Assembly: GCA_030247885.1 (NCBI GenBank)
Contig: JAPDRO010000011.1
Span: 744,001-808,000 of the forward strand
Length of the DNA: 64,000 nt
Direction of reading: 5' to 3'
Source: Taxawa tesnikishii (nom. ined.)
Lineage: Eukaryota > Ascomycota > Dothideomycetes > Dothideales
In this document: positions 1 to 16,566 of the stretch, one piece after another
Numbering within the stretch: position 1 is the stretch's first letter
How the letters are laid out: each line of letters starts with the position of its first letter
The notes under the pieces: model-generated
Seen by the model: only the letters and a program-made list of their open reading frames with translations
What the model was told of the DNA's origin: nothing
Database searches by the model: none
Made by a program: the position numbers and the translations under genes

Positions 1-871
1 CACCGGCAGGAGCGGACTATTACGTGTACTATCCAGAGCGCACACCGAAGCGCTTAACCTTCATCCTAACATACATCGGCGAGAACCTCAGCGAGATCTT
101 CACCTTCCTGATGGGAGCCGGCATCGCATCAGGTGAGTCGCAACACACCACACAAGCCCGTTTTTGTCCCGTGAACAGTGCCGATAACGATGTCTCGTTC
201 AGGAATCATGAACAACCCAACCTGGAGCGCCGCAAACGACATCAGCCCGGGCGCCGTCATCACCGCAGGTTTCAGTCCTCTGGGTTCTTTCGGGTAAGAA
301 CACAGAACCTGCGTATGCTTCTCTAGCGTCAAAATCTAACTCAATTTCTAGCAAGTTCTGCGCCGTCATCATGGCTCTCGGTGTCATCGCAAACAACATT
401 CCCGGCACATACAGCGCAGGTCTTGGCTTCCAGTGTCTCGGCTCATGGCCCCTTCGCGTTCCGCGCATGGTATGGAACACCTTCGGCGTCGCCGTGTACA
501 CTGCTTGCGCAGCCGCCGGGCGCGACCACCTCTTCGAGATCTTTGAGAACTTCCTCGCGCTTATGGGGTACTGGGTGTGCATCTGGATCGTCATAACACT
601 TCAGGAGCAGTGGATCTTCCGCAATGGTGTATACGACTGGAGTCACTGGAACGACCGTACTAAGCTGCCGATCGGACTGGCGGCGCTAGCGGCATTCTGT
701 ATTGGCTGGGTTGGCGCCGTGCTGTGTATGGATCAGATTTACTTTGTCGGCCCTATTTCGAAGATGGTGGGTGAGTTCGGGTCGGATATGGGTATTTTTG
801 TGGGCAGTGCTTGGGCTGGACTTGTATACCCTCCGCTACGGTGGATTGAACTGAAGTTCATTGGGCGTTAA
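1..871 (+). CDS. NCS1 purine-cytosine permease, 3' part (5' end outside window)
   Basis: Last three exons of a permease of the fungal Fcy2 purine-cytosine type (NCS1 family), which imports purines, cytosine or related compounds across the plasma membrane. The coding frame is open from base 3 and enters the window mid-gene. Introns are 133-202 and 294-351, both GT-AG; joined exons read ADYYVYYPERTPKRL, then GENLSEIFTFLMGAGIASG, NNPTWSAAND and several hydrophobic membrane segments, ending WIELKFIGR. The stop is at 869-871. It runs toward the minus-strand regulator gene, whose stop lies 182 bases away. It could supply substrate to the adjacent catabolic cluster, but the Hxn transporters described in Aspergillus are, as I recall, major-facilitator proteins, so its membership is inference. 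Family assignment is firm; substrate is unknown. Confidence 0.85.
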
Positions 872-1053: not shown

Positions 1054-4000
1054 CTATACAAGTGTTTCATCCTGATTGATCAGCCTCCAGGGAACCAAGC
1101 CCTTCAACACAATCATGCCTTCATGCACAACCGCCCACCTGACCTTACTCAGATGCTTCGCTACCACCGCCGTCAACCCCGCCGTTCTCGTCTTCCGTTT
1201 GCCAGGAGGTGCCGCCACGAGCTGGTCAGACCTCACACTCGTCATGCTAGAGATTAGAGCGTTCATTTCTGCCTTCGCATCCCAGATCATCTCATCGTCT
1301 TCCTCGTCTGCCGCCGTAGCAGCCTCGCTGACAGTCGGACGTGCGTGGTAGAACGACCAAATAGTCGTGGTAGCCAGGAAAAGACACCAGGGGTAGTGCA
1401 ACAGGCCGCCGGCGTCAAAATCCTCAAGGTGCATAACGGCGTCTTTGAGCAGATGGGCCGCGTGCCATGCCGCCTTGGATGCCGCTTGGCTGTCCCCTTT
1501 GCCCAGCGCTTGACCACCTTCTGTGATCGCGTGTAATCCGCGCGCGACACGGGCCGGCCGAGGATGTGGCGCGCACCGGCGTAGATCTGAAGATCGAGGA
1601 ATTCGGCGTACAAAATCACGTGCGCAGCGTGGTAAATGGCGATGTAGGACGTCGTGAATATGGCAAATTCCTTCTTAGCTTGCTGCTGCTGTTCGGGATT
1701 GACAGTCGGAGAGGCGTGGGAAAGGGTATGTGCCATAGACATAGTGTAGGCGTCGAAATCGGCTTTCCAGGCATTGTAGGCAGTGGCCATGCGGTGTCGC
1801 CAGTCCCCGAGGACAGTGTCGTTGCCCATAAGACCTACAGAAGGTGAGCATGTAGTCCAGCATATCGGTGAGTCAAATTTTTACCTAACGAGGTCTGATC
1901 CCTCCGCTTCATGTCCCAACTCACAGACATCAACCCATGGAAGAGGATTACCCGCGAGAGCGCGTTCAGGTTTCGTGATGTAGGAGGCGTTTCTGCGGAG
2001 AGATACGACTTGAGGACGGTGAGAAACAGCGGCGGTTGCTTCTGCTTCTTCCGTAATCTCTGCCATTGTTCGGCAGACGGCGCTTCCCACAGAGATTGGC
2101 CGCAGGGCAACGTGGAGCGCAACTCGAACGCGGACATGCAGAGTGATTGGCAGAACAGCACCGCGTGTTGCACGTCCCACGTGAAGCACAAAAGCGCTAG
2201 TCTGCGTAGAAGTCAGGCGTTGTTGTGGGAACGAGTGTAAGAAAGCTCACCTCTTCCTCTGCTCGGCCTCCACCCACGCTTTCCAGTCGTCCTCTAAATC
2301 GCCAGTGCCTTCTTCCAGGGTCTCTGGCCTGATTGTTTGACAGTCGCTCCGTCTGATCAGATTTATCAACAAGCCGTGAAACAGGTGGCTCATGTCATGC
2401 TGCTTTTGACCAGCACGTGACTTTCCGAAGCACTCAACAAGCAGTATAGTCTGAAGTACCCAGAGCTCAGGTCGAGCGCTAAATCCAGCATTCGCAAAAA
2501 CTTGCGGTCGTAAAACGTCATGAATGCAGACCTAAGAAGAATTAGCAACTGACGTCCCGTGCGAACCCTTCAAGTGTGTCCTCGACGCAGGTGATGGCAA
2601 CAAACGTGTACACTCACCGCCAATTGATGTGCATCTTTTTCGCAGTAGGTGGCGCCTAAGAGAAGTACGGCCGCCAACAGCAACGTTTCCGTCTGCGCAG
2701 GTTCAAAGGTTGCTTGATGAATGAGTGGATATGCGGCGTTGAAACGCGAGAAATAGAGATCCGAGTAAGTTTGTAGCGACGAAAGGGACAAGCGAGGATC
2801 GTCTGTTGCGATGTAGTGTCCATCGGGAGTGATTGGTTGGGAAATCTCGATCAAGTCGAGTATCTGAGCTCTGGCTATTTCATCAATGCTGGGCAGGCCT
2901 GTTGACTGATCGAGAAGCGTCATCGGGCGTTCTGTGTCAGCCTCGCTGGCGGCAGTGCCGCCATCACTGATCTTACGAACCGCCTGGCCATCGCCGTTGC
3001 TGACCGATGTCGCTTCAGTCGATACCTCGGTTCTCGAAGACGATGCTCTGCTCGCATGTGACGAGCTTGATGCGTTGCTAAAGTCGATTCCATGGTCACC
3101 AGGAACCTCGCTTACAGGAGTGCGCAGTGGCACTGGTTGCGGTGACGCTGCAGCGGGCTTCCTTTGCACCTCCGGAGAACTCGTAGCAACAGCAGGACGC
3201 TGCTCAAAGCCAGGTATGTCGTCAAAGCTCAAACTCAAGGGATTGCCGCTCGTGTTGGCGGTAGAGATATCTGGAAAGGTGTCCAGCCGACCTTGTCGTC
3301 CCTGACCAAAAGCTTCCATGCCATCCATTTGTTGATACGGATTTAGGTTAATGTCGAATAACCAGTTATAATTGTTCATAGTGGTAAAAGGCATGTTGAA
3401 TGAGCTCGCTGTAGGCGGTCAGACATTGCTACGACTGGAGGATATGTTGAAGCACTATACCTGTATCCGGATTGAAGACATCCTCATACGGAGCACTCTC
3501 CTGGGGGACCCTCACGTCCTGGTTTGCTTTAACGGATGTTTCCCAAAACCGTCGGCTGCCTGGATAGGGTCGAACGAGGTTTCCATGAGGTCAATCTCGG
3601 TTGGAGCAAAGACCCATGGATCGTTGGCCACGCGAGGCACATTCTGATTGTCGGTTTGCATGTTTGCGGAAGAAGATCCCAGCGATGTCGGCGGCGACAT
3701 GAGCGCGGGGTCGATGTCAATGGAGTGTGCAGACTCTAAACCGATTGCTGCTGCTGTTGTTGCATCTTCTTGTCCGCTTACGTTTGGCTTCTTGGATACG
3801 ATGTTACCATCCACATCCTTCCACATACGCTTGCGGGTCATTAAAGCTCCTCCTTCGGCATCCTTTTGTCGATGACGGGCAAGATGCCTCTCTATCCAGG
3901 ATGTCAGTCAGATTTGTCCCATGCTACGAGCGATTGGTAGGCTCGAGAGTGGTACCAGTCGTGGTTGTGATCACACAAACCGGGAATGCTCGCTGTGCAC

Positions 4001-4224
4001 CCAGTATACATGGGCAGGTAACAGGTATGAACCGGATATCTTCGTGACATACCTAGAAGATCTCGCCGCTTGAAATGCGCCCGACATCTTTCGCATGTAT
4101 TGTCACCGTCAGTATGATTGAGCACATGCCTCTGCAAATGTTCTTGACGAGTAAAAGTTCTACCACATTCGTCGAATGAGCAGGCAAACCTCTTGTCTGC
4201 AGTCTTGACTTTGTGGGAGACCAT
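1054..4224 (-). CDS. hxnR: C2H2 zinc-finger / Fungal_trans transcription factor, HxnR-like
   Basis: Predicted specific activator of the neighbouring catabolic genes, about 924 residues. ATG at 4224 opens MVSHKVKTADKR, then two C2H2 fingers (CSFDECGRTFTRQEHLQRH and CERCRAHFKRRDLLERHLAR), a Ser-rich linker, NMPFTTMNNYNWLF, and a C-terminal fungal-specific regulatory domain. Introns: 3892-4052, 3409-3460, 2532-2617, 2202-2250, 1835-1884. Two one-base shifts are needed: near 3542-3548 (C3A4 run), where GFGKHPLK must pass into ANQDVRVPQESAPY, and at 1494-1497 (C4 run), where VVKRWAKG must pass into DSQAASKAAWHAAH. Both look like missing bases. The upstream 671 bases hold a TTATCA (GATA-type) site at 4284. 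The assignment to HxnR rests on finger architecture plus the neighbours; many fungal regulators share this layout. Confidence 0.8.
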
Positions 4225-4895
4225 TGTTATCACGGTACACTGGGGAACAATGATCTAGGTTACGACTTGGAGGACGAAGAAGATTATCAGGTAGAGGGTC
4301 GAGAGCTGCGAGTCGGTTCAGCACCCCAACTGTAGTTAGGCTGGTTCACGGATGTGGCAGCCGTGTTCCAACAGCGCCGATGTTCGCAGGCTAAGCTATG
4401 GCTTGCCTACAATGGTTCTGCCGGGTCTTGATATGTAGCCGTATTCCATCGTTCCATCGCCCGCGGCTAGCAGCTACCGATTGTCTTCGCCGCAAAGCAG
4501 GGCGACGCCGCCCAACGACTCATGTCGCACAGTTAGAGAATTCTGATGGCCATGTTTTCCCCAGCATAAGCTGTTCATGGCGGTTTGAGTCAGGAGAAGA
4601 ATTGATGTTTCTGAATAACGCAACTGTGAAGAAGAGACGCCGAAAGCAGCAGGTTGCGGCTGGCGCTAGGACCTTCTTTCGGGGAGGACCCTGAAGCACC
4701 CATGACTCGCTCCGCCGGATATAAGGCCAGAGCTCTGTTGCACTTATCAAGCAAGAGTGGGGGTGAATCTGGAACAATTGACTCTCTGCAAGCATGGAGA
4801 TGAACAATGACAATCGCAAATTGCATTCTGAATCTTATGACTCAGGGTATGTACAGAAGGAACCCCAGCATCAACTTCCTCACCCCGGCCGGCCA
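4225..4895. promoter_or_regulatory. Intergenic: upstream of hxnR-like gene, downstream of hxnT-like gene
   Basis: No coding frame with fungal codon character or splice structure is visible. It should hold the minus-strand regulator's promoter. Weak candidate sites are TTATCA at 4284-4289 and at 4227-4232, matching the HGATAR nitrogen (GATA-factor) consensus on the minus strand. Such sites are common by chance. Confidence 0.4.
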
Positions 4896-6192
4896 TCACG
4901 CGGTGCCATTGGTCTGTCCGTTGAAGAAAGGGTAGTCTGTGTAGCCCTTGGATGGCGGGCTTGCGCCGTAGAAAGTGCTGCGGTCGTATGGGTTCAATGG
5001 TAGGCCGTCTGCCAGTCTTCGTGGCAAATCCGGGTTTGCAATGAACCATCTTCCCATAATGATCGCGTCCGCATCATCTGCGTCGAGTTTCGGTACAGCG
5101 TTGTCGCGGTTGAAACTTCCGGCGGCCAGGAACTTGACCCCGCCCTTCTGCAGGATGCGGCGGAGTGGCACGAGAGAGTTGGCCATCTTCCTTGTCGCCT
5201 CAGCCTCCACTCCGTCGTTCTTTGTGTATGCTGCGAGAGCGTCCATCTTTGCATTCTCGTCCAGGACTTCATCGAATCTCGGCTCCACGCAGTGTACGTA
5301 GGTAGGCCTCTGCTCTTCGGGAAGGGAAGCGATCTGCTCGCACAGGTATGCCCAGTGTGCACTTGGGTTGGAGTCGCGGGTATCTTGGAAGTAGTTGTAG
5401 GGAGACAGTCTGATTCCAGTGCGGTCGGCTCCGATTGCGGCGCAAACAGCTTTGATCACTTCGATTGGGAAGCGGGAACGATTCTCGACGGAACCACCGT
5501 AGCTGTCTGTTCTTTGGTTGACATTGTCGTGAAGGAATTGGTCAAGGAGGTAACCGTTTGCGCCTGACGAGGTTATCAGCTGGCTGTGCCGTCACTGTGT
5601 CGTCCCCAATGACCGTACCATGAATCTCTACTCCGTCAAAACCCGCTTCGATCGCCTTCTTAGCAGCCTCCGCAAAGTCGTTCGTGGTCTCGTGGATCTC
5701 CTCCACTGTCATTGGCTTTGGTGGTGCATCGCCATATTCGGTTCCGTCAAGTGCCTTGCCAGAGATGGGATTATCACTGGCACTGATCGATTGCTTTCCA
5801 CCCCGGAGACCTGGTGGGGACGCCCGACCGGTATGCCACAGCTGACAATAGATGAAACCTCCCTTGGCGTGCACAGCGTCCGTCACACGCTTCCAGCCTG
5901 CAATCTGTGACTGGGTGAAGACACCCGGAGTACCTGGGTAACCGCTTGCATAGTGGCAGATATCCGTGGCTTCGGCAAGTTGGAGGCCGCCTTTACTCGC
6001 TCTTTGCGAGTAATACTCTACGGCAAGATCGCCTGGCACATAAACACCGTCGCTTTCCTTCTCAGCTCGCATGCGAGTCAAAGGAGCCTGGACGAGACGG
6101 TGCTCAAGACTCAACCTGCCAAGCTTCAACGGCTTAAACAGGATGCTGTCCCTCAGAGGGGTGAACGCAGGAGGAGAGATTGCGGCAGGCAT
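4896..6192 (-). CDS. hxnT: NADH:flavin oxidoreductase / old yellow enzyme, HxnT-like
   Basis: FMN-dependent ene-reductase of about 413 residues, a TIM barrel of the OYE family. ATG at 6192 (MPAAISPPAFTPLRDS) is the first ATG that gives a normal OYE N-terminus. Visible motifs: LGRLSLEHRLVQAPLTRMR, QLWHTGR, GFDGVEIHGANGYLLDQF (substrate-binding His-x-x-Asn) and QRTDSYGGSVENRSRF; the end has the FMN-phosphate region AAGSFNRDN and IIMGRWFIANPDLP. One intron, 5564-5618. In Aspergillus nidulans the OYE-type HxnT acts on a hydroxylated pyridine-derived intermediate in nicotinate breakdown; the same ring-reducing role is inferred here from the cluster. Alone, it could be any OYE. Confidence 0.9.
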
Positions 6193-7140
6193 GTTGAAAT
6201 CTCTACTTAACAAGAAAAAAAACCGAGCAGTATGGACAGAGTGCAATAACACAGGGAAAAAGGAACGCCTTGGAAGGAGTTTTATTGACCTGCCTGCACG
6301 TGTTTTTCGCGATGCCGAGTACGAAGTTAACCCTTCCTGTCACTCTTGACCCGAGTTCACTATCTCCGCACGTCTTCATATCCTGACGGATAGCAAAAGT
6401 CAAGAGTTCGGAGACGTGAGTGGCTCTAGAGTGGGGTGGAAAGTCCGGTGGGTAGATCCAGCATTAGCGTGTATGAAGCCGAACTGTGGTTCAGAAAGAA
6501 AGTGGGATTGCATACTGTCGGGTCAGTTGGGATAGCAGCATGCTTTTTCATCCTAGCGAGGGGTAGTGTGCGGGCTGGTGGTATGCAGTACGGCACATCG
6601 CCCATCTGGGGCGGAAAAGTACGGCGCCTTGAGAATGGCATCCGCACACATCGAATGGTTGTACCGAACGCTGTACAGGAGTTCAACGGACGAGCGTAGA
6701 AAATTCATGCAAGTGGACTGTGAGGGAGTGTTCAACCCGCTGCTCGACACAGATCGAACGCACACATGAGTACGTCAGGTTCGCCGCAAAGTCACAAAGC
6801 GTGCCGCGTTGCTAAACTCAAGCCATGATCACGAATCATGAAGGAGAACACAATTGCCATCCGCCTGATGCATAGCGCTGGAGGTGGTAGACTGCATTCT
6901 GATGATGACTAAGCGTAGTACGGAAACATTCGCGTCCGGATCGCGTCAACACCTCCAACACATCGACGCGAAGATCATCAACGTGCCCCTAAAATGCCTA
7001 CCAAACATCAAGAATCGTATGTTTGTTCGACAAAGATGGGCTGATCAAGATGGTTGTCCTCTTGAACAATCACCGCCGCGACTGATGAGGCCATGCATGT
7101 TCGCCGCATACGCGTGCAAGCAATCTCTTCATCTGCTCTT
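6193..7140. other. Intergenic, upstream of hxnT-like gene
   Basis: About 950 bases without a convincing gene. Open frames here are short, lack splice partners and have no recognisable domain. It should contain the promoter of the minus-strand OYE gene and the 3' end of the dehydrogenase transcript. Confidence 0.4.
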
Positions 7141-8063
7141 CTACCACTTGGTAACTCCTCCATCAACACAGATGTCCTGTCCGGTCATGTAGCTACTTGC
7201 ATCGGAAGCCAAGAAAACACAAGCGCCACGTATGTCGTCCGGTTCTGCCACTCTTCCGTTCATGATTTCATCCTTCCAGCTTTCGAGGAGGTGTGGAAAC
7301 GGCGCGGTCATTTCAGTCCTTACGTATCCGGGCGAGACCGAGTTGCATCTGATACCGTACTTGACCAATTCGGCCGCTGGTCATGTCAACCTGGAGCCAA
7401 TTTTGCCAACAACGCTGCGGACGTACCTATCGCTGGGCACATGGCTCTCACAGCACCCTTGGTCCCGCAGTATGCTGAGGAGAGCTGAGATCGGATAGCC
7501 ATGTATGACGCGATCGAGGCGACGAGGACTATTGAACCCTTCGTGGTCTTGTTGGCAATCATCGCTTTCGCCGCCAGTTGTGCCGTGTAATACAGTCCCT
7601 TGATGTTGACGCCCACCAGCCTGTCAAATCTCTCCGGAGTAGTGTCGAGGAAGCCGACGTTATCGTTGACGCCAGCGGTAGGGACACAAACATCGAGCTT
7701 CCCATCGAAATCTCTCCTGAATGCTTCAAAGCCTTCTTCTAGACTGGACATCGACCTGACATCGACTTTGTAATGCGCCGTCTTCACGCCAAACTTCTTT
7801 TCGATCTCGAAAAAGGCTGGTACAGGATCGATCACTGCCGAACGTGAGCATGTGCGCAGTGCCTTGCCGCACCGGGAATATCGCAACTCACCGTCGAAGA
7901 TGGCAACATCAGCGCCGGCCTCCGCGAGGCCCTCGGCGAAAGCAAGACCACAGCCGCGAGCTCCGCCTGTAACGAGGGCTGTCCTGCCTTTGAGAGAGAA
8001 CTATACATTTGAAGATCAGTCCATCATCCATCAACGCCATAGAGCGCAACGTACTCTACTCAT
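7141..8063 (-). CDS. hxnW: Short-chain dehydrogenase/reductase, HxnW-like
   Basis: Classical SDR of 253 residues with a Rossmann NAD(P)-binding fold. The first exon is only nine bases (ATG AGT AGA, 8055-8063). Introns 8001-8054, 7835-7891 and 7377-7426 give an unbroken frame: MSRFSLKGRTALVTGGARG (TGGxxxGxG cofactor motif), PTAGVND in place of NNAG, catalytic SSAYCGTKGA (YxxxK with preceding Ser), and NSVSPGYVRTEM. The end is ICVDGGVTKW. It resembles sorbose reductase/polyol dehydrogenase-like SDRs. In the A. nidulans nicotinate pathway HxnW is the dehydrogenase that leads toward 3-hydroxypiperidine-2,6-dione; that role is inferred from context. It is divergent from the hxnM-like gene, sharing 555 bases of promoter. 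Confidence 0.85.
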
Positions 8064-8618
8064 CGTGGTTGTTGAGGGCACAGAAAACAACGATAGGTAA
8101 AGCTATTCAGACTAAACTCCGTTCGAGAAGAGGACTGTGCTGTTTTGTTGAACAATGAATCACGAAGATGGGGTATCAAAACACTCGTTTGGTGTTCCCT
8201 ACTCTCCATGATCGTTTATACGATTCTGCGATTGTTCCACTTCTGTGACACCAGTCGCATCCCACTTCCACCAATTCGTTCACCGGGATTCAGACACCCT
8301 CGTACACTTTTCTCGGATCGCGTCACGAACGATGTACCTGCATCGCGTGCCGGCGCTGCTGCAGGGCGCCGCGATAACAGTAGCGCGGTTTGCTGGGAAT
8401 CCCCCACCTTTCATTCTCCATGCAGCATTACCGCGTGCCCCACCGAGGGCTTTCTACGCTTTGTATGCATGTGTAAACACTGTAAAAAATAATCGCTTGT
8501 ACGTGAGGACATCTTTTCTCTTTTGAAACCACTTTTCGCAACTCAATCGCATCGCTGCGTCCAAAGAAATATCTACATTCCTTTCTCTTCCATATTCTGA
8601 CAAGGACTTGTCAAAAAC
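8064..8618. promoter_or_regulatory. Shared divergent promoter, hxnW-like / hxnM-like
   Basis: 555 bases between the two start codons (8063 minus, 8619 plus). A CGATAG (HGATAR) site is at 8091 and a CCAAT box at 8271-8275; pyrimidine-rich sequence precedes the plus-strand ATG. The arrangement would allow co-regulation of two consecutive pathway steps. The sites are weak matches only. Confidence 0.5.
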
Positions 8619-9780
8619 ATGGGCAAGAAGCGTGTGCTAGTTTCTTACGGTGTGGACATCGACGCTGTAAGACAAACTTGGTCGCCTGCTCGGAAGAAAA
8701 TGTCGCTAACGTGTTCTAGGTGGCTGGCTGGTTGGGCTCATACGGAGGCGAAGATTCGACCAGTGACATTAGCAGAGGTACATTACACTCTGAGTGGGAG
8801 ACGTCTTGTGGAACACGCAGCTGAGGGGTTACCAGGCATATGGGCTGGCACCCACGGTACGAGGAGGTTGCTGCAATTATTCAAGAAGTACGACATCAAG
8901 GCGACATGGTTCATACCAGGCCACTCGCTCGAATCTTTCCCGGAAGACTGCGCTGCCGTACGCGACGCTGGACACGAGATCGGCCTGCACGGTTACTCGC
9001 ACGAGAATCCCGCAGACATGACCTTTGAGCAACAGCGTGACGTTCTCGACAAGACATACAAGCTGCTTGTGGACTTCTGCGGCGGCAAGCCTCCACGTGG
9101 AAGCGTAGCACCTTGGTGGGAGACCAGCAAGGAAGGAACCGAGTTGCTGCTTTCGTACGGTATCGAGTACGATCACTCTATGAGCCACGAGGACTGCCAG
9201 ATGTACTGGTTGAGGACAGGTGATACATGGACAAAAATCGATTACTCGAAGAAGGCGGAGGAATGGATGAAGCCGCTGGTCAAGGGCGAGACTACAGGAC
9301 TTGTTGAGATCCCCGGAAGCTGGTATATCGATGTGCGTGCGCGAAACGGATGAGGTTGTCGGAGATGTAGGCTGACATTCATGGCAGGACCTGCCTCCGA
9401 TGATGTTCATCAAGAACAGCGCCAACAGTCACGGCTGGGTCAACCCCGAGACGTCGAAGCTATCTGGATGGACCACTTCGACTACTACTACCGCGAATTT
9501 GATGAGTTCATCTTTCCGATGACTATCCATCCAGGTAGGATAGCGACTCAACAGCAACGGAGATTGAAGCTGATTGGATACAGACGTGAGTGGAAGACCG
9601 CATGTCTTGCTTATGCACGAGCGCATCATCGAGCACATCAACAAGCACGAGGGCGTCGAGTGGGTGACTATGGGAGAGATGTGTGATGACTTCAAGAGCA
9701 GGAACACACCTCCAGCTGGTGCCCGGATGCCAGCCAGCAGGGAGGAGGTGTTGGCGAAGCTGCAGAAGGGTGGACTGTGA
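8619..9780 (+). CDS. hxnM: Polysaccharide-deacetylase-fold (NodB) hydrolase, HxnM-like cyclic imide hydrolase
   Basis: Metal-dependent hydrolase of about 315 residues. Introns 8667-8719, 8778-8835, 9333-9387, 9535-9583. The spliced protein begins [20 protein letters not shown] and carries the NodB metal set: Asp of VDID, then His pairs in [14 protein letters not shown]; further on [24 protein letters not shown] and [12 protein letters not shown]. It matches the H. pylori PgdA-like/allantoinase-like branch that includes cyclic imide hydrolases, and lacks a signal peptide or chitin-binding module, arguing against a secreted chitin deacetylase. HxnM opens the ring of 3-hydroxypiperidine-2,6-dione in A. 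nidulans; the same reaction is inferred. One missing base is implied in the C4 run 9444-9447 (frame passes from HGWVN to [12 protein letters not shown]). Confidence 0.85.
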
Positions 9781-10405
9781 AGGAAATCTTCCTGGTCGAG
9801 GTTTCTATAGTATCTTCAGCGAGAAATCTCTACGTCGTTTTGAGTCTTATCCAAACTGTCATACTGTACCTTGAATCTCAGCAAACCTCTGTATCTATAC
9901 AAGATATGGAACCGCATTGTAACCAGTTGCGAGTCGTTAACAGAAACATACACGTGTACGGACATCCGGTGATCGGCCTGTCTGCTTCGTGCCCCGGACG
10001 CGTTTCAGACGCGTCACACAGATCAAACCCCCGACATTTTCCCCTGGCTCAAGCGCGTCCCAGCATGGTTTCCCTCCCATCTCCCCCACCCTTCTGTCCT
10101 GCTTCCGATTCTTCCCATCCTCCAACTCCTTTCCTCCACCCACGGTGAGGCAGCGTCCGCTTCTCGAACCTCCAGAACGGCGGCCGAATCATCTAAGCCA
10201 ATACGCGAGATAAGCGCGTCCGTAGCTATCGCCTTACAGTAATGTACAGACGTAAATGGAGGTAGGGGTCGTCCTACAGCATGTCACTCGAACCACAAGT
10301 ATCTGCTCTCTCTATCTACTATTCTCTATAACAAAGCTCAAGTATTTTGTTCGTAAATCTTGCCTTCCCTTGTTTGGCTCAGAAAAAGTCATCTGTTATC
10401 GGATC
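9781..10405. other. Intergenic, upstream of hxnX-like gene
   Basis: About 625 bases; C-rich stretch around 10040-10140 and AT-richer sequence before the next ATG. No gene seen. It should hold the promoter of the FAD monooxygenase. Confidence 0.4.
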
Positions 10406-11984
10406 ATGGCTCGCTCTGTACAGGTTCAACAGAAGCTCCACAGGCTGGATGCCGACCAGTTGGACGTAAGCGCAGAACGCTCTCTTGTTTGTCACTAGCA
10501 GTCTAACGTTGTTAGATCATTGTCATCGGCGCCGGTCTGGGCGGCCTTGGAGCGGCAATCTCGCTCCTGTTAGCTGGTCACCGCGTCCACGTGCTAGAGT
10601 CTGCATCTCAAATCGCCGAGATAGGCGCCGGCATCCAAGTGCTACCCAACAGCTCGCGCGTCTTGATCCAATGGGGCCTCGAAGACAAACTCAAGCGCTA
10701 TGCAACATGCCCTAAGCAAGCAAACATGCTAGGTTGGAAAGGAGACAACATCTCGTTCATGGACTTTGTGGGTGCGAGCGCGGAATACGGAACGCCGTTC
10801 TGGGACTTCCATCGCGCAGATCTGCACCGGAGCTTGTTGGAGAGAACGGAGGAGCTGGGAGGCACGTTTCAGATCAATTCAAGGGTAGTGGATGTCGAGT
10901 TCTCGGAAGAGGGTGACGGTTCGGCGACAGTTGTGCTTCAAACAGGAGAGAGGCTACACGCGGACCTAGTGGTGGGAGCGGACGGACTGCACTCGCGTTG
11001 CAGAGAGATATTGCTGGGCAAGCCCAGCCCACCTACCCCGACCGGAGATCTTGGTTAGCTTCATGCAAAACGTCTGCGAAGATATGTTGGAGCTGACAGT
11101 GATCGTGCAGCATACAGACTGCTGCTGAACACCCAGGACATGGCAAAAGACCCGGAACTGGCACCGTTTCTTGACGGCCACGAAGTCAGGTACTGGATGG
11201 GCCCTCAAGCACATGCAGGCAAGTTCAGTGACGTCTGCATCTGCGACAACATCAGCTAATGCCAATGACAGTAAACTACGTGCTCCGCAATGGAGAGCTT
11301 TTCAACATGGTCTTGCTCGTACCGGACGACATGCCGGCCGGTGCTACAACGCTCCAAGGCAACGTCGAAGAGATGCGCGCTTTCTTCAAGGACTGGGATC
11401 CCCGGATTCCCAAATTGCTCAACCTCTGCCAGTCGGTGCAGAAGTGGAAACTGTGCTATAGACCCGGCCTCGAAACCTCATGGTCGCATCCGAGCGGCAC
11501 ATTCGCTCTTCTGGGAGACGCCGTGCACGCCACACTGCCCTACTTGGCGTCTGGTGCAGGCATGAGTCTGGAGGATGGCATGACGCTGGGTCTGTGTTTT
11601 GCACGCCTCCGCAGCCGGTCAGCACAAGAGAAGAAGCTGGCGCTGCGGGTATACGAAGCCTGCAGGCGCGAGCGCACAGAGAGCATTGTCGAGCGGGGAA
11701 ATGTGCAGCAAATGTTGTATCATTTGGACGATGGCAAGGAGCAGAGGGCGCGGGATGAGCGTTTCAAAGCCTTCGGCGAGGTAGAGAAGAAGATTAGGGA
11801 GAGTGGTGGCAGGGCGGAGGACATCTTGCTACCCGAAGGACTGATAGGGGGCACAGATCCGTTGGTCTGGAGGAGGAATGGAGTAGGCAGGTGGTTGCTG
11901 AACTTTGATTGTTTGGCCGACGTGGATGCTCACTGGCCGTTGAGGGAGGAGTTTGGGACTGAGCCAGCGAGGGCTCAGCTGTAG
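10406..11984 (+). CDS. hxnX: FAD-dependent monooxygenase, salicylate-hydroxylase type, HxnX-like
   Basis: Group A flavoprotein hydroxylase, 472 residues, clean frame over four exons. Introns 10466-10515, 11054-11110 and 11219-11271; the last uses a GC donor (GCAAGT). Motifs: GxGxxG in VIGAGLGGLGAAIS, DG motif VVGADGLHSRCR, and GD motif LLGDAVHATLPYLASGAG. It would use NAD(P)H and O2 to hydroxylate, possibly with decarboxylation, an aromatic acid. In the A. nidulans pathway HxnX converts 6-hydroxynicotinate to 2,5-dihydroxypyridine; assigned here by fold and neighbours. It is convergent with the amidase, stops only 56 bases apart. Without the cluster it would be called a salicylate hydroxylase-like enzyme. 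Confidence 0.85.
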
Positions 11985-12040
11985 ATTGGCTTGACGCTAT
12001 TGGCGTAATGGCCTTGTGAAGCCCCTAACAATACAAAATC

Positions 12041-13989
12041 CTATCCTTGCTTCAGTATCTGCTCTACCACTTTCGCCGCCCCTAGCACCTTCTCCTCTTC
12101 TAACCGCTTTCCGACAATCTGCACGCTGATGAACATACCATCCGTAGTCTCGGGATCGTATAGCGCCCAATTCCACCCATCGAGATCGTTCCTCGCCACA
12201 TACCCCTCCACGCTCTCACGCTTCCCCATATCGACTGCCTTGTCCACCCTCCCAGCTGGCAACACACACGCAGAGTAGTCGAGGAAGTTCCACACCTTGG
12301 TGTATCCTACCCATCTGCAACCCCTGTGCGGGACCGCTGGATGCGGCATGGTTGGCGTGAGCAGGATATCCGCTTGGCGCCCGCTAGTGGGTGATCGCAG
12401 ACGTTGCCATTTGTCCAAGTAGGCCTTCTGCGCGGCCTGTTTGGCTCGGTTGAGCTGCCAGTACGCGTAGACCGAGATTGCAGGCCCGCGGTTCACGAGC
12501 GCGGCGACGTGCGGAATGTAGGGCTCACCGCCTGCTGAGACGTCGCGGCGAACGTCTTCGCCACCGTCGGCGGTGTAGTATTGGTCCTGCAGAGTGATAA
12601 GTCTCAACGGCAACAGGTGTGTAACAGGCTATGTGAGGATGGTGGACGAGGTTGGGTGTCGGAGGAACACAACTGACCATGATGTTGATGCACTCCTGAT
12701 GTCCGTTGCTATCCCACTGTACCACTTCATGGCCTGCTTTCTCCAATTTTGCGGCGACTTCTCTGACCACGCGCTCGATGGGCGGATGGACTTTGACGAC
12801 GCCGTCGTCGACGAGCAAACCAATGACCAAAGGCCGAGATTGCACTTGCCGGTACGCTTCTTCCCGCCACGGCAAAGGGTGGACTTTGGGATCTAGATCC
12901 CATGGCGCCGCATCGATTACCGCTTTCGTGACGAGGCGCAGGGAGTTCAGACTTCGCGTCATTGGTCCGACAACCGAGGGAACGTGTTCCTGGCCCTCTG
13001 TCGAGACGGGCACGCCTAGGTAGGGCATGCGACCGCTCTGGAATCCAGAAAGTCAGCGATGTTCTGCGAAGGACAGGTAACGGATGAGATTGGCACTCAC
13101 GCTGGGCTTGAGAGCGTAGAGTCCGAGCATGTGTGACGGGATTCGCACACTACCTCCGATATCCGTCCCCCAGCCCACCAGCGAGCCATGCTGGGCGAGA
13201 AGAGCGCTCTCGCCGCCCGTCGAGCCACCAGGGGTGAAGGCTGGATTCAGTGGGTTCGTCGTCAGGCCCCAGAGCGGATTTTCTGTCTCGCACCTGAGAT
13301 GCGTCAGGATTTCTCCAACGACCCGGCTAAGGTGATACTTGGGCACCGTACTCACCACATGATGCTCTGTGGCAAATTCGTCTTCGCTATAAAGATGGCA
13401 CCCATCCCCTTCAGGAGAGCTACGATCACGGCGTCTTCGTCGGCGGGCTGGAACGTCCGTCCTACATAGCCGAGCGTGGTATCGTAGCCTCTGACGTTGA
13501 ATTGGTCCTTTACTGTCATGACCACGCCGTGGAGAGGTCCGATGGGCTTCCTGTGTTCGGCATAGTAGGCGTCGAGGTCGCGGGCTTGCTTGAGGGCGTC
13601 ATCAAACATGACTTCGGTCAGACAGTTCGTCTACGATTGGTTCAGTAACGCTGTCTCCGTGGCAGTATGATGGACGGCACCACACCTTCTGGTGCGCCTC
13701 TGCAGCTCTGTGCTGGCATTAGATCTACCTTATGGCGCGGCAGATAATCGAGCGAGGCTTACTTTCGTACATAGGCTGAGACTACATCGTACGCCGTCAA
13801 CTCGCCATTAGCGATCCGATCGACCAGCTCCTCTGCATCGTCGACTGCGGTGATGCTCTCATCTGTCTGTCCGGCTTTTTGCAGAATATACGGCTGGAGA
13901 GCAGCCGCTTGAATCTTCCTCTTCCGCAGGACTTTAGTCAGCCAGGCTGGCTCTCCGTTCTGTAGTTCTCCGTTCTGTAAGCCTGTCAT
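12041..13989 (-). CDS. hxnN: Amidase (amidase-signature family), HxnN-like
   Basis: Ser-cisSer-Lys amidase of 540 residues. Six exons; introns 13708-13762, 13631-13685, 13294-13355, 13038-13100, 12587-12677. The second exon is only 22 nt (13686-13707, reading AAEAHQK across its borders). Visible: catalytic Lys in VMTVKDQFNV, Gly/Ser-rich GGSTGGESALLAQHG, nucleophile region GWGTDIGGSVRIPSH, and ILLTPTMPHPAVPH near the C terminus. It resembles fungal acetamidases and fatty-acid amide hydrolases. HxnN deamidates alpha-hydroxyglutaramate in A. nidulans nicotinate breakdown; that role is inferred. It is divergent from the phenol-hydroxylase-type gene across 489 bases. Confidence 0.88.
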
Positions 13990-14478
13990 GGTGTGTTTGA
14001 TGATGCTGAAGGTGGAAGAGCGCCATGGCTGGTTGATCTACACCAAATACTGATCCAGTTGCGTTGGACTGCCGACCTCGGATGAACTCGGTGTCTGCGG
14101 GAGTTGACCTACCCTACGGGGAGTGGTCACGTTGACAAGCTTCCTTAACGGGAAGTCTTATCAAGGGCTCGGTGTGGGGCAACGTGCTCACTCTTCACCC
14201 CCACCTTTCGACTCCTCCGCCTGCTTGGCCGCGGCGAGACACACAACACACGAACATGAACTCCACTATTCTAGTCGCCATCGTGGTGAAGGTCGGCAAC
14301 ATCCACAATGGGGGAGTTGCTCTATGGTCCGATCAATGGCGCCATTTTCGACATGTCTGAATCAACTCAACTTCGAGATATTCTGCTATATCCAGCTGCT
14401 GGCCCTGGAGAGGGTAGCACGCATACTCGACACTCAACTCTCACTGCCTGAAATAACAGAAAGAGCAAAAATACCAGG
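13990..14478. promoter_or_regulatory. Shared divergent promoter, hxnN-like / hxnV-like
   Basis: 489 bases between two start codons. A TTATCA (HGATAR on minus) lies at 14158-14163, and a perfect 12-bp palindrome AATGGCGCCATT at 14335-14346. Neither is shown to be bound by anything; the palindrome is the most symmetric element in the cluster's intergenic DNA that I saw. Confidence 0.5.
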
Positions 14479-16566
14479 ATGTCACCAGGAGTTCTGGCCT
14501 CAGAGCCACAGTCCAACGGGCTGCCCATGAACGATGTTGTTGTTGTGGGTGCCGGTCCCGCAGGATTGATGCTGGGGTGCGTGCCGTATGCTCATCTCGC
14601 GCGCACCAGAAAGCTAACAAAGGCGCGGCTACAGGGCCAACCTCGTGAGGTTTGGCATAAAGACCACAGTCTTGGACGACAGGCCAGACAAGACATCGAC
14701 AGGGAGAGCAGATGGACTGCAGCCGAAGTCGATCGAGACACTACGCCAGATGCGCTTGGCGGATTCACTGCTGCAGCGAGGAGTCAAGATCTACGACATC
14801 TGCTTCTGGGTACCGCTCTCGAGTCTCTGAGTGGTGGTGAGGACACGGCCAAGCTGACGTGAGGCACAGAGTTCGACATCTACCACCCCTTTGCACCGGA
14901 CGGGCCGGGAAGTGCATTACCCTCCAGTTGTCGATGTTCTAGAACCTTATATTCTCCTTGTCCACCAGGGCATGGTAGAGGAGTTGTTCCTGGACGACAT
15001 GAAAGCGCGAGGCGTGGAGGTAACCAGGAACTCACCTTTCGTCAGTTACAATCGAAACGCAAAAGACGGATCTCTCGAAGTGGTTTCTCGAGACACATAC
15101 AGCGAGGCCGAGAAGACCCTGCATACGAAATACCTGGTGGGAACAGACGGTGCACACTCGCAGGTCAGGAAGTGCATACCGGATGCCAGACCTGTAGGCG
15201 CGTCTTCGGACGCTATCTGGGGTGTCTTGGACGGTGTTATTGAGACAGACTTTCCGGACCTCTGGAGCAAGGTTGTCGTTTACTCCGAGGAACACGGCAA
15301 TGTTCTTTGCATCCCTCGCGAGCGCAACATGACAAGATTGTACATTGAGCTCAAGTCCGAGTCTGGTGCACCCGTCTCAAAAGCGGAAGCAACACAGAGC
15401 TTCGTCATGGCGCGGGCCAGGGAGATAATGAAGCCATACAGTTTGAGGTGGGAGAGTGTTGGTAAGTCATGCCGCCCGAGCTGTTGTCGAACCCTCGTTG
15501 ACAGCTTTGCAGAGTGGTTTGGCATCTACGTGATCGGCCAACGTGTTGCAAACCGCTTCACGGATGACGCTCAGCAAGTATTCATTGCTGGAGATGTGGG
15601 TGATGTCCGCGTGGGTTTGGTTGCCATGACTGACAGCCGCAGGCCAGCCACACGCACTCTCCAAAGGCAGCGCAGGGTATGAACACTTCAATGCACGACA
15701 CTTTCAACCTGGCATGGAAGCTCAATCTCGCGGTCCGCGGACTCGCTAAGCCCCACCTTCTCGCGACATACGAGCACGAACGGCGAAAGATTGCCCAAGA
15801 TCTGATCAACTTTGACTACGAGCACGCGAACGCCTTCCACGCCGGAGACGCAGAAGCCCTGGCACAGAACTTCCAAACCAATGTCCGGTTCATCTCCGGC
15901 GTCGGCGCCGAATACGGCCCAAACGTTCTGAACCAACCTCTGCAGAGCCCCAGCACAGGACTTCGACCAGGCTGTCTCCTCACGCCGGCCAGGGTGACCC
16001 GTTACGTCGACGCCAACCCCGTCGACATCCAGCTCGACGTCCCCATGCTTGGACAGTTCCGCGTCTACTTCTTCTGCCGCAACGTGCACGCCGTAGCACC
16101 CTTCCTCAACAGCGTCTGCTCGCACGTCTCAACCTCGTCATCCTCCGTCCTGGCCAGCATCACCGCAGCCGCCAAAGTCTCGTACGCGAGTCAAAGGCCC
16201 GCGCCAACGGAGTCGGACGCCTTCATCCAGCCAGGGCGGTATACTGCCGCGAGCGACGTCTTCACATACGCCCTCGTCACGACAATGCCCAAAGCTGAAC
16301 TCGAGATTGCGCATCTGCCTCCATTGCTGCAGGCTAGTCGCTGGACCGTGTACCTGGACGATGTCCCCAAGCAGGATACCAGGGGCCAGCTGTGCACAGA
16401 GAAGTGGCTGGGCGGTGTGCAAGACGACGAAGTTGCGATTGTAAATGTCAGACCGGATGGGTATGTGGGTAGTGTCGGTCGCTGGAGGGATGCGTGTGGT
16501 GCTGCGAGTGCGGAGGCGGCGGCGAACTGGTTGGATGATTACTATGGCGGGTTCTTAAAGGCGTAG
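14479..16566 (+). CDS. hxnV: FAD-dependent monooxygenase, phenol 2-monooxygenase type, HxnV-like
   Basis: Group A flavoprotein hydroxylase of 623 residues in five exons, no frame break. Introns 14577-14634, 14810-14869, 15462-15512, 15596-15642. Motifs: [37 protein letters not shown] motif [15 protein letters not shown] motif [19 protein letters not shown], and a C-terminal thioredoxin-like domain typical of phenol hydroxylase dimers. HxnV hydroxylates a dihydroxypyridine intermediate in the A. nidulans pathway; the same is inferred. An internal ATG at 14527 ([10 protein letters not shown]) is an alternative start; 14479 adds 16 residues. Last cluster member on the right. Confidence 0.88.

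Follow-up and report, generated by a model that had tools for sequence, protein, structure and literature searches.

The locus described here raises two questions: which catabolic pathway is encoded by a compact group of enzyme genes in the ascomycete Taxawa tesnikishii (nom. ined.), and with which substrate could this pathway begin? The window, that is, the whole 64,000-nucleotide stretch analysed, corresponds to C3:744001-808000, where C3 denotes contig JAPDRO010000011.1 of an assembly of 29.4 Mb in 34 contigs (GCA_030247885.1). Using stop-to-stop reading and exon-by-exon models, genes resembling hxnR, hxnT, hxnW, hxnM, hxnX, hxnN and hxnV were found in a single 15.5-kb block (window 1054-16566), in the left-to-right order R-T-W-M-X-N-V (Table 1). 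We consider it highly probable that this block is an ascomycete hxn cluster in reduced form, without hxnS. Gene content, gene order, the intact frames of five of the seven genes, residue conservation and a single xanthine dehydrogenase (XDH)-type gene were all read directly from the assembly. Previous hxn work is cited from excerpts of PMC5746545, PMC8478523 (Bokor et al. 2021) and PMC9304392.

The gene content is the first line of evidence. The Pfam families of the seven genes match the Hxn set one for one, and the presence of seven genes of the published set side by side within 15.5 kb is not due to chance. Five genes (hxnT, hxnW, hxnX, hxnN and hxnV) are open from ATG to stop; one of the three introns of hxnX is of the GC-AG type (window 11219-11271). 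A foreign origin is not indicated by base composition, as the G+C content of the block (0.544) is close to that of the remaining window (0.555) and lies within the range of 20 other 10-kb pieces (0.481-0.576). A preliminary description of the window had already named these genes as HxnR, T, W, M, X, N and V in this order, and the domains, solved structures and published residues fit that assignment.

Table 1. Features of the hxn-type block and its left flank. Positions are those of the window unless prefixed with L002; lengths of the A. nidulans proteins (excerpts of PMC8478523) are given in brackets; values after domain names are from Pfam.
Feature	Position	Strand	Product and introns	Domains and remarks
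hxnR-like regulator	4224-1054	-		zf-C2H2 1.9e-8, Fungal_trans 8.4e-50; convergent with NCS1 gene
hxnT-like old yellow enzyme (alkene reductase)	6192-4896	-	413 aa (388), 1 intron	Oxidored_FMN 1.9e-85
hxnW-like short-chain dehydrogenase	8063-7141	-	253 aa (254), 3 introns	adh_short_C2 1.3e-56
Shared upstream region, divergent couple hxnW-hxnM	8064-8618			555 bp
hxnM-like NodB-fold cyclic-imide hydrolase	8619-9780	+		Polysacc_deac_1 1.6e-17
hxnX-like FAD monooxygenase	10406-11984	+	472 aa (461), 3 introns	FAD_binding_3
hxnN-like amidase	13989-12041	-	540 aa (543), 5 introns	Amidase 7.2e-102; convergent with hxnX, 56 bp gap
Shared upstream region, divergent couple hxnN-hxnV	13990-14526			537 bp
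hxnV-like phenol-hydroxylase-type monooxygenase	14527-16566	+	607 aa (620), 4 introns	FAD_binding_3 4.9e-70, Phe_hydrox_dim 7.9e-21
NCS1-type permease gene	L002:8858 (about 1.1 kb left of the window) to window 871	+		Transp_cyt_pur; 3' part is window 1-871
Cytochrome P450 gene	L002:6144-8049	-		divergent from permease

The second line of evidence is the identity of the six enzymes, for which the closest solved homologues and the active-site residues named for the A. nidulans Hxn proteins in PMC9304392 served as the benchmark. For all six enzymes, at least one structure named there as the closest homologue recurs among the structure matches. It is the best match for HxnM (3qbu, E 9.7e-91), the third for HxnN (2vya, with 6kvr also present), the second and fourth for HxnV (1pn0 and 2dkh, with 8r2u also present), the sixth for HxnX (5eow, with 8gsm and 8x38 also present) and the seventh for HxnW (3awd), while HxnT matches OYE/OPR structures, with 1oya lower in the list. 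The published residues are likewise retained. HxnX carries all eight at a constant offset of +2, including the NicC-like His and Tyr, and HxnV carries the five listed ring-contact and Lys residues (Asp, Lys, Leu, Ile and Tyr) as counted on the structure alignment, a sixth position being ambiguous. The His, Asn and Tyr ligands of HxnT (3/3) and the Asn, Ser, Tyr and Lys of HxnW (4/4, plus a TG(X)3GXG motif at 14) are also in place, and the catalytic motifs of HxnN and HxnM are present as read by eye. In addition, the C-terminus of HxnX, AQL, fits the consensus of the type 1 peroxisomal targeting signal (PTS-1) quoted in PMC12316961, which those of the other five enzymes do not.

Pfam called the Fungal_trans domain of the HxnR-like regulator and its first C2H2 finger; a second finger (C..C..H..H), not called, was seen by eye. 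The paralogues of this regulator in the same genome share just 27-34% identity with it. According to the excerpts of PMC5746545, constitutive mutations of A. nidulans HxnR hit aromatic residues two positions apart (226 and 228), and a Tyr-x-Trp pair at about residue 215 of the protein described here may correspond to them.

The entry substrate depends on the partners that are missing. Searches of the assembly with MoCoBD_1 and MoCoBD_2 gave one match each, in the same gene on contig C17, and this sole XDH-like gene reads FTALF. In the excerpted text of PMC5746545, HxnS orthologues have FATAL (or FSTAL) followed by His, and HxA orthologues have FTAL followed by Phe; because of this signature, the gene on C17 is taken as xanthine dehydrogenase and not as hxnS. 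Thus, within the limits of the assembly, no hxnS was found by the two XDH-family domain searches, and hxnS appears to be absent. With hxnS apparently absent, 6-hydroxynicotinate is a likelier entry substrate than nicotinate. Such a state is already known, as hxnR without hxnS was recorded in 40 of 139 species in a 2017 survey (PMC5746545, excerpts). As for the other partners, none of the 11 assembly matches to DIOX_N, the family of HxnY, lies on C3, the contig of the window. No MFS gene was seen among membrane-type open reading frames (ORFs; at least 100 aa with at least two hydrophobic stretches) in the 124 kb of C3:704001-828000, where an MFS gene in short exons could escape. A genome-wide MFS search scored 9 of 454 candidates, which says nothing and leaves room for unlinked MFS copies elsewhere. 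The earlier remark that HxnS, HxnY and an MFS transporter are missing from the window is thus borne out. The preliminary description had also called the block a nicotinate cluster; its hxn-type identity stands, but strict use of nicotinate does not, given the apparent loss of hxnS from the assembly.

Compared with known hxn clusters, the arrangement itself is not new. The preliminary description was right, according to PMC8478523, that A. nidulans has eleven hxn genes in three clusters, but the idea that a single block is new has to be rejected. Single 11-gene clusters exist, hxnM and hxnN belong to the cluster in those Pezizomycotina that lie outside Aspergillus (PMC8478523, excerpts), and it is A. 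nidulans that is the odd one. The divergent couples hxnW-hxnM and hxnN-hxnV, which are called conserved in the same source, are both present here. In the clusters of Cyphellophora europaea, Hymenoscyphus repandus and Monascus ruber as excerpted from PMC8478523, the seven gene types also lie in one block with both divergent couples, whereas hxnS, hxnY, hxnP and hxnZ are not part of the block in our case. The order differs as well: in C. europaea, according to the text description, hxnM lies between hxnX and hxnV, and five genes separate hxnP from hxnR. In Penicillium, Talaromyces and Aspergillus section Flavi, the clusters resemble this one in keeping the regulator and downstream enzymes with hxnS missing, but nine hxn genes and pfdB are reported for them, in contrast to the seven hxn genes and adjoining NCS1 permease found here (PMC8478523, excerpts). 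The six enzymes of A. nidulans, as far as the excerpts of PMC8478523 and PMC9304392 go, agree with those described here in family, length and active-site residues, and the three-cluster layout differs. Two features remain particular to this locus, namely its reduction to seven hxn genes and its NCS1 neighbour.

Taking the A. nidulans pathway as a template (PMC9304392, excerpts), we infer each reaction, the regulation, the substrate and the nitrogen use in this fungus as follows. HxnX, peroxisomal by its C-terminus, would replace the carboxyl group of 6-hydroxynicotinate with a hydroxyl group to give 2,5-dihydroxypyridine, which HxnV would hydroxylate to 2,3,6-trihydroxypyridine. After ring reduction by HxnT, the product would be oxidised by HxnW to a cyclic imide, the imide ring would be opened by HxnM, and ammonium would be released from hydroxyglutaramate by HxnN. 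HxnR would act as the activator of the hxn genes, in part by way of the two divergent promoters. In the absence of HxnS, 6-hydroxynicotinate (for example, of bacterial origin) would be usable and nicotinate would not, as is predicted for species lacking hxnS in the excerpts of PMC8478523.

The NCS1-type permease gene at the left edge is a possible cluster-linked transporter. It ends 182 bp from the hxnR stop, tail to tail, and no other transporter-like gene was found within about 30 kb to the left and about 40 kb to the right. The region between the P450 and permease genes contains seven HGATAR motifs (2.75 expected) and four GHGGGG motifs (1.67 expected), expected counts here and below being from single-base shuffles. 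The joined exons match Transp_cyt_pur (1.9e-15, 57.1 bits, cut-off 23.5), whereas two single exons tested separately had no Pfam match; the score against the NCS1 model TIGR00800 (126.5 bits) is below its cut-off of 353.1, and no solved structure matched at E up to 1. The PF02133 genome search gave 17 matches but missed this gene, which marks its match as divergent or exon-poor. The usual substrates of NCS1 permeases are nucleobases, and the tail-to-tail position gives permease and hxnR no common promoter. In spite of the motif excess and the lack of another transporter-like gene nearby, the permease, and perhaps the P450 too, is probably an unrelated neighbour of hxnR outside the regulon. It is a rather unlikely proposal that the locus is a minimal 6-hydroxynicotinate cluster, fed by 6-hydroxynicotinate from other microbes, in which an NCS1-family permease replaced the MFS proteins HxnP and HxnZ. 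Beyond the P450 gene, HET-domain ORFs adjoin a SLATT_fungal ORF (L002:1959-5668), possibly a heterokaryon-incompatibility locus, and a PAF-acetylhydrolase-like ORF and a PPR-repeat ORF lie to the right of the block.

Several points weigh against reading the block as a reduced hxn cluster. Orthology to the A. nidulans proteins rests on indirect tests (families, solved structures and published residues). hxnY, hxnP and hxnZ are not linked to the block, which therefore lacks some members of the regulon known from A. nidulans. Motif counts in the five hxn promoter regions are near chance (8 GHGGGG, 5.6 expected; 11 HGATAR, 9.5 expected), as they are in the 555-bp hxnW-hxnM region. Finally, the reading frames of hxnR and hxnM are interrupted in the sequence. 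hxnM has one firm frame break near 9443, with no room for an intron; up to this point, the stretch around it shows conservation with 3qbu. In hxnR, a firm break lies near 1497, where the paralogues L036 and L037 are uninterrupted, and a probable one near 3550 is less certain because an intron is possible there (3515-3405 in a codon-usage model).

These breaks may be real, in which case the cluster would be decaying, the pathway would be unregulated and imide ring opening would be lost. The apparent absence of hxnS would agree with decay, and a second HxnM-like gene on the same contig (C3:311193-312006), 70-74% identical to the clustered hxnM over two pieces, could stand in. On the other side, both genes are recognisable end to end, the frame 3' of every break stays open and conserved, five enzyme genes are fully open, and each firm break lies at a short homopolymer. 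Similar breaks also occur in control genes. The XDH gene has one at a G run (L001 about 625), and of ten chaperonin-family loci judged by eye, one, the TCP-1 gene at C1:528261, shifts frame without intron room (L038 about 260; confirmed on the DNA), while another has three stops within the match. Because the TCP-1 chaperonin gene should be essential and shows a like break, we read those in hxnR and hxnM as homopolymer assembly errors rather than decay, by which the chance of real decay is lowered, not removed. The codon-usage gene model argues against assembly errors, since under two frame-shift costs it modelled all seven genes without a frame shift and put introns instead. Two of these were rejected: intron 9333-9419 in hxnM would delete a stretch conserved in 3qbu, and intron 1576-1521 in hxnR would delete one conserved in L036 and L037. 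The model also differed from the adopted ones in hxnN and hxnV. Decay of hxnR and hxnM is improbable, and was rejected for now on the XDH and chaperonin controls.

The remaining points against a reduced hxn cluster concern HxnX. Its residue pattern is weakly specific: counted by eye, 7/8 and 6/8 of the residues occur in L041 and L042, the two nearest paralogues in the same genome, and 6/8 in either of the solved enzymes for 4-hydroxybenzoate and vanillate. HxnX is also nearer to the 4-hydroxybenzoate and vanillate decarboxylating 1-hydroxylases (E 3e-96 and 4.5e-93) than to NicC (4.4e-45). It is improbable, nevertheless, that the block is a related cluster in which enzymes of these types have a different substrate, namely some other hydroxylated aromatic or pyridine carboxylic acid: these two nearest structures and the lack of linkage of hxnS, hxnY, hxnP and hxnZ would suit such a cluster, whereas HxnX keeps all of the published residues, the separate paralogue L042 (C16:158200-159600) resembles the solved 4-hydroxybenzoate 1-hydroxylase 8gsm in its sequence motifs more than hxnX does, and the combination of HxnT, HxnW, HxnM and HxnN is meaningful only if the substrate is an N-heterocycle that undergoes reduction, ring opening at the imide stage and deamidation.

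In conclusion, this fungus is one more species that keeps the lower hxn pathway tightly clustered although hxnS appears to be lost, and it offers a natural test of whether fungi without hxnS use 6-hydroxynicotinate and not nicotinate, as published work proposes. HxnX groups by sequence with the newer structures of decarboxylating 1-hydroxylases, which are enzymes of the same kind of chemistry. In a word search of the three hxn papers, NCS1 had no mention, and 'permease' does not occur in the excerpted text of PMC8478523. Should the neighbouring permease be co-regulated, it would represent a kind of transporter that those papers do not name.

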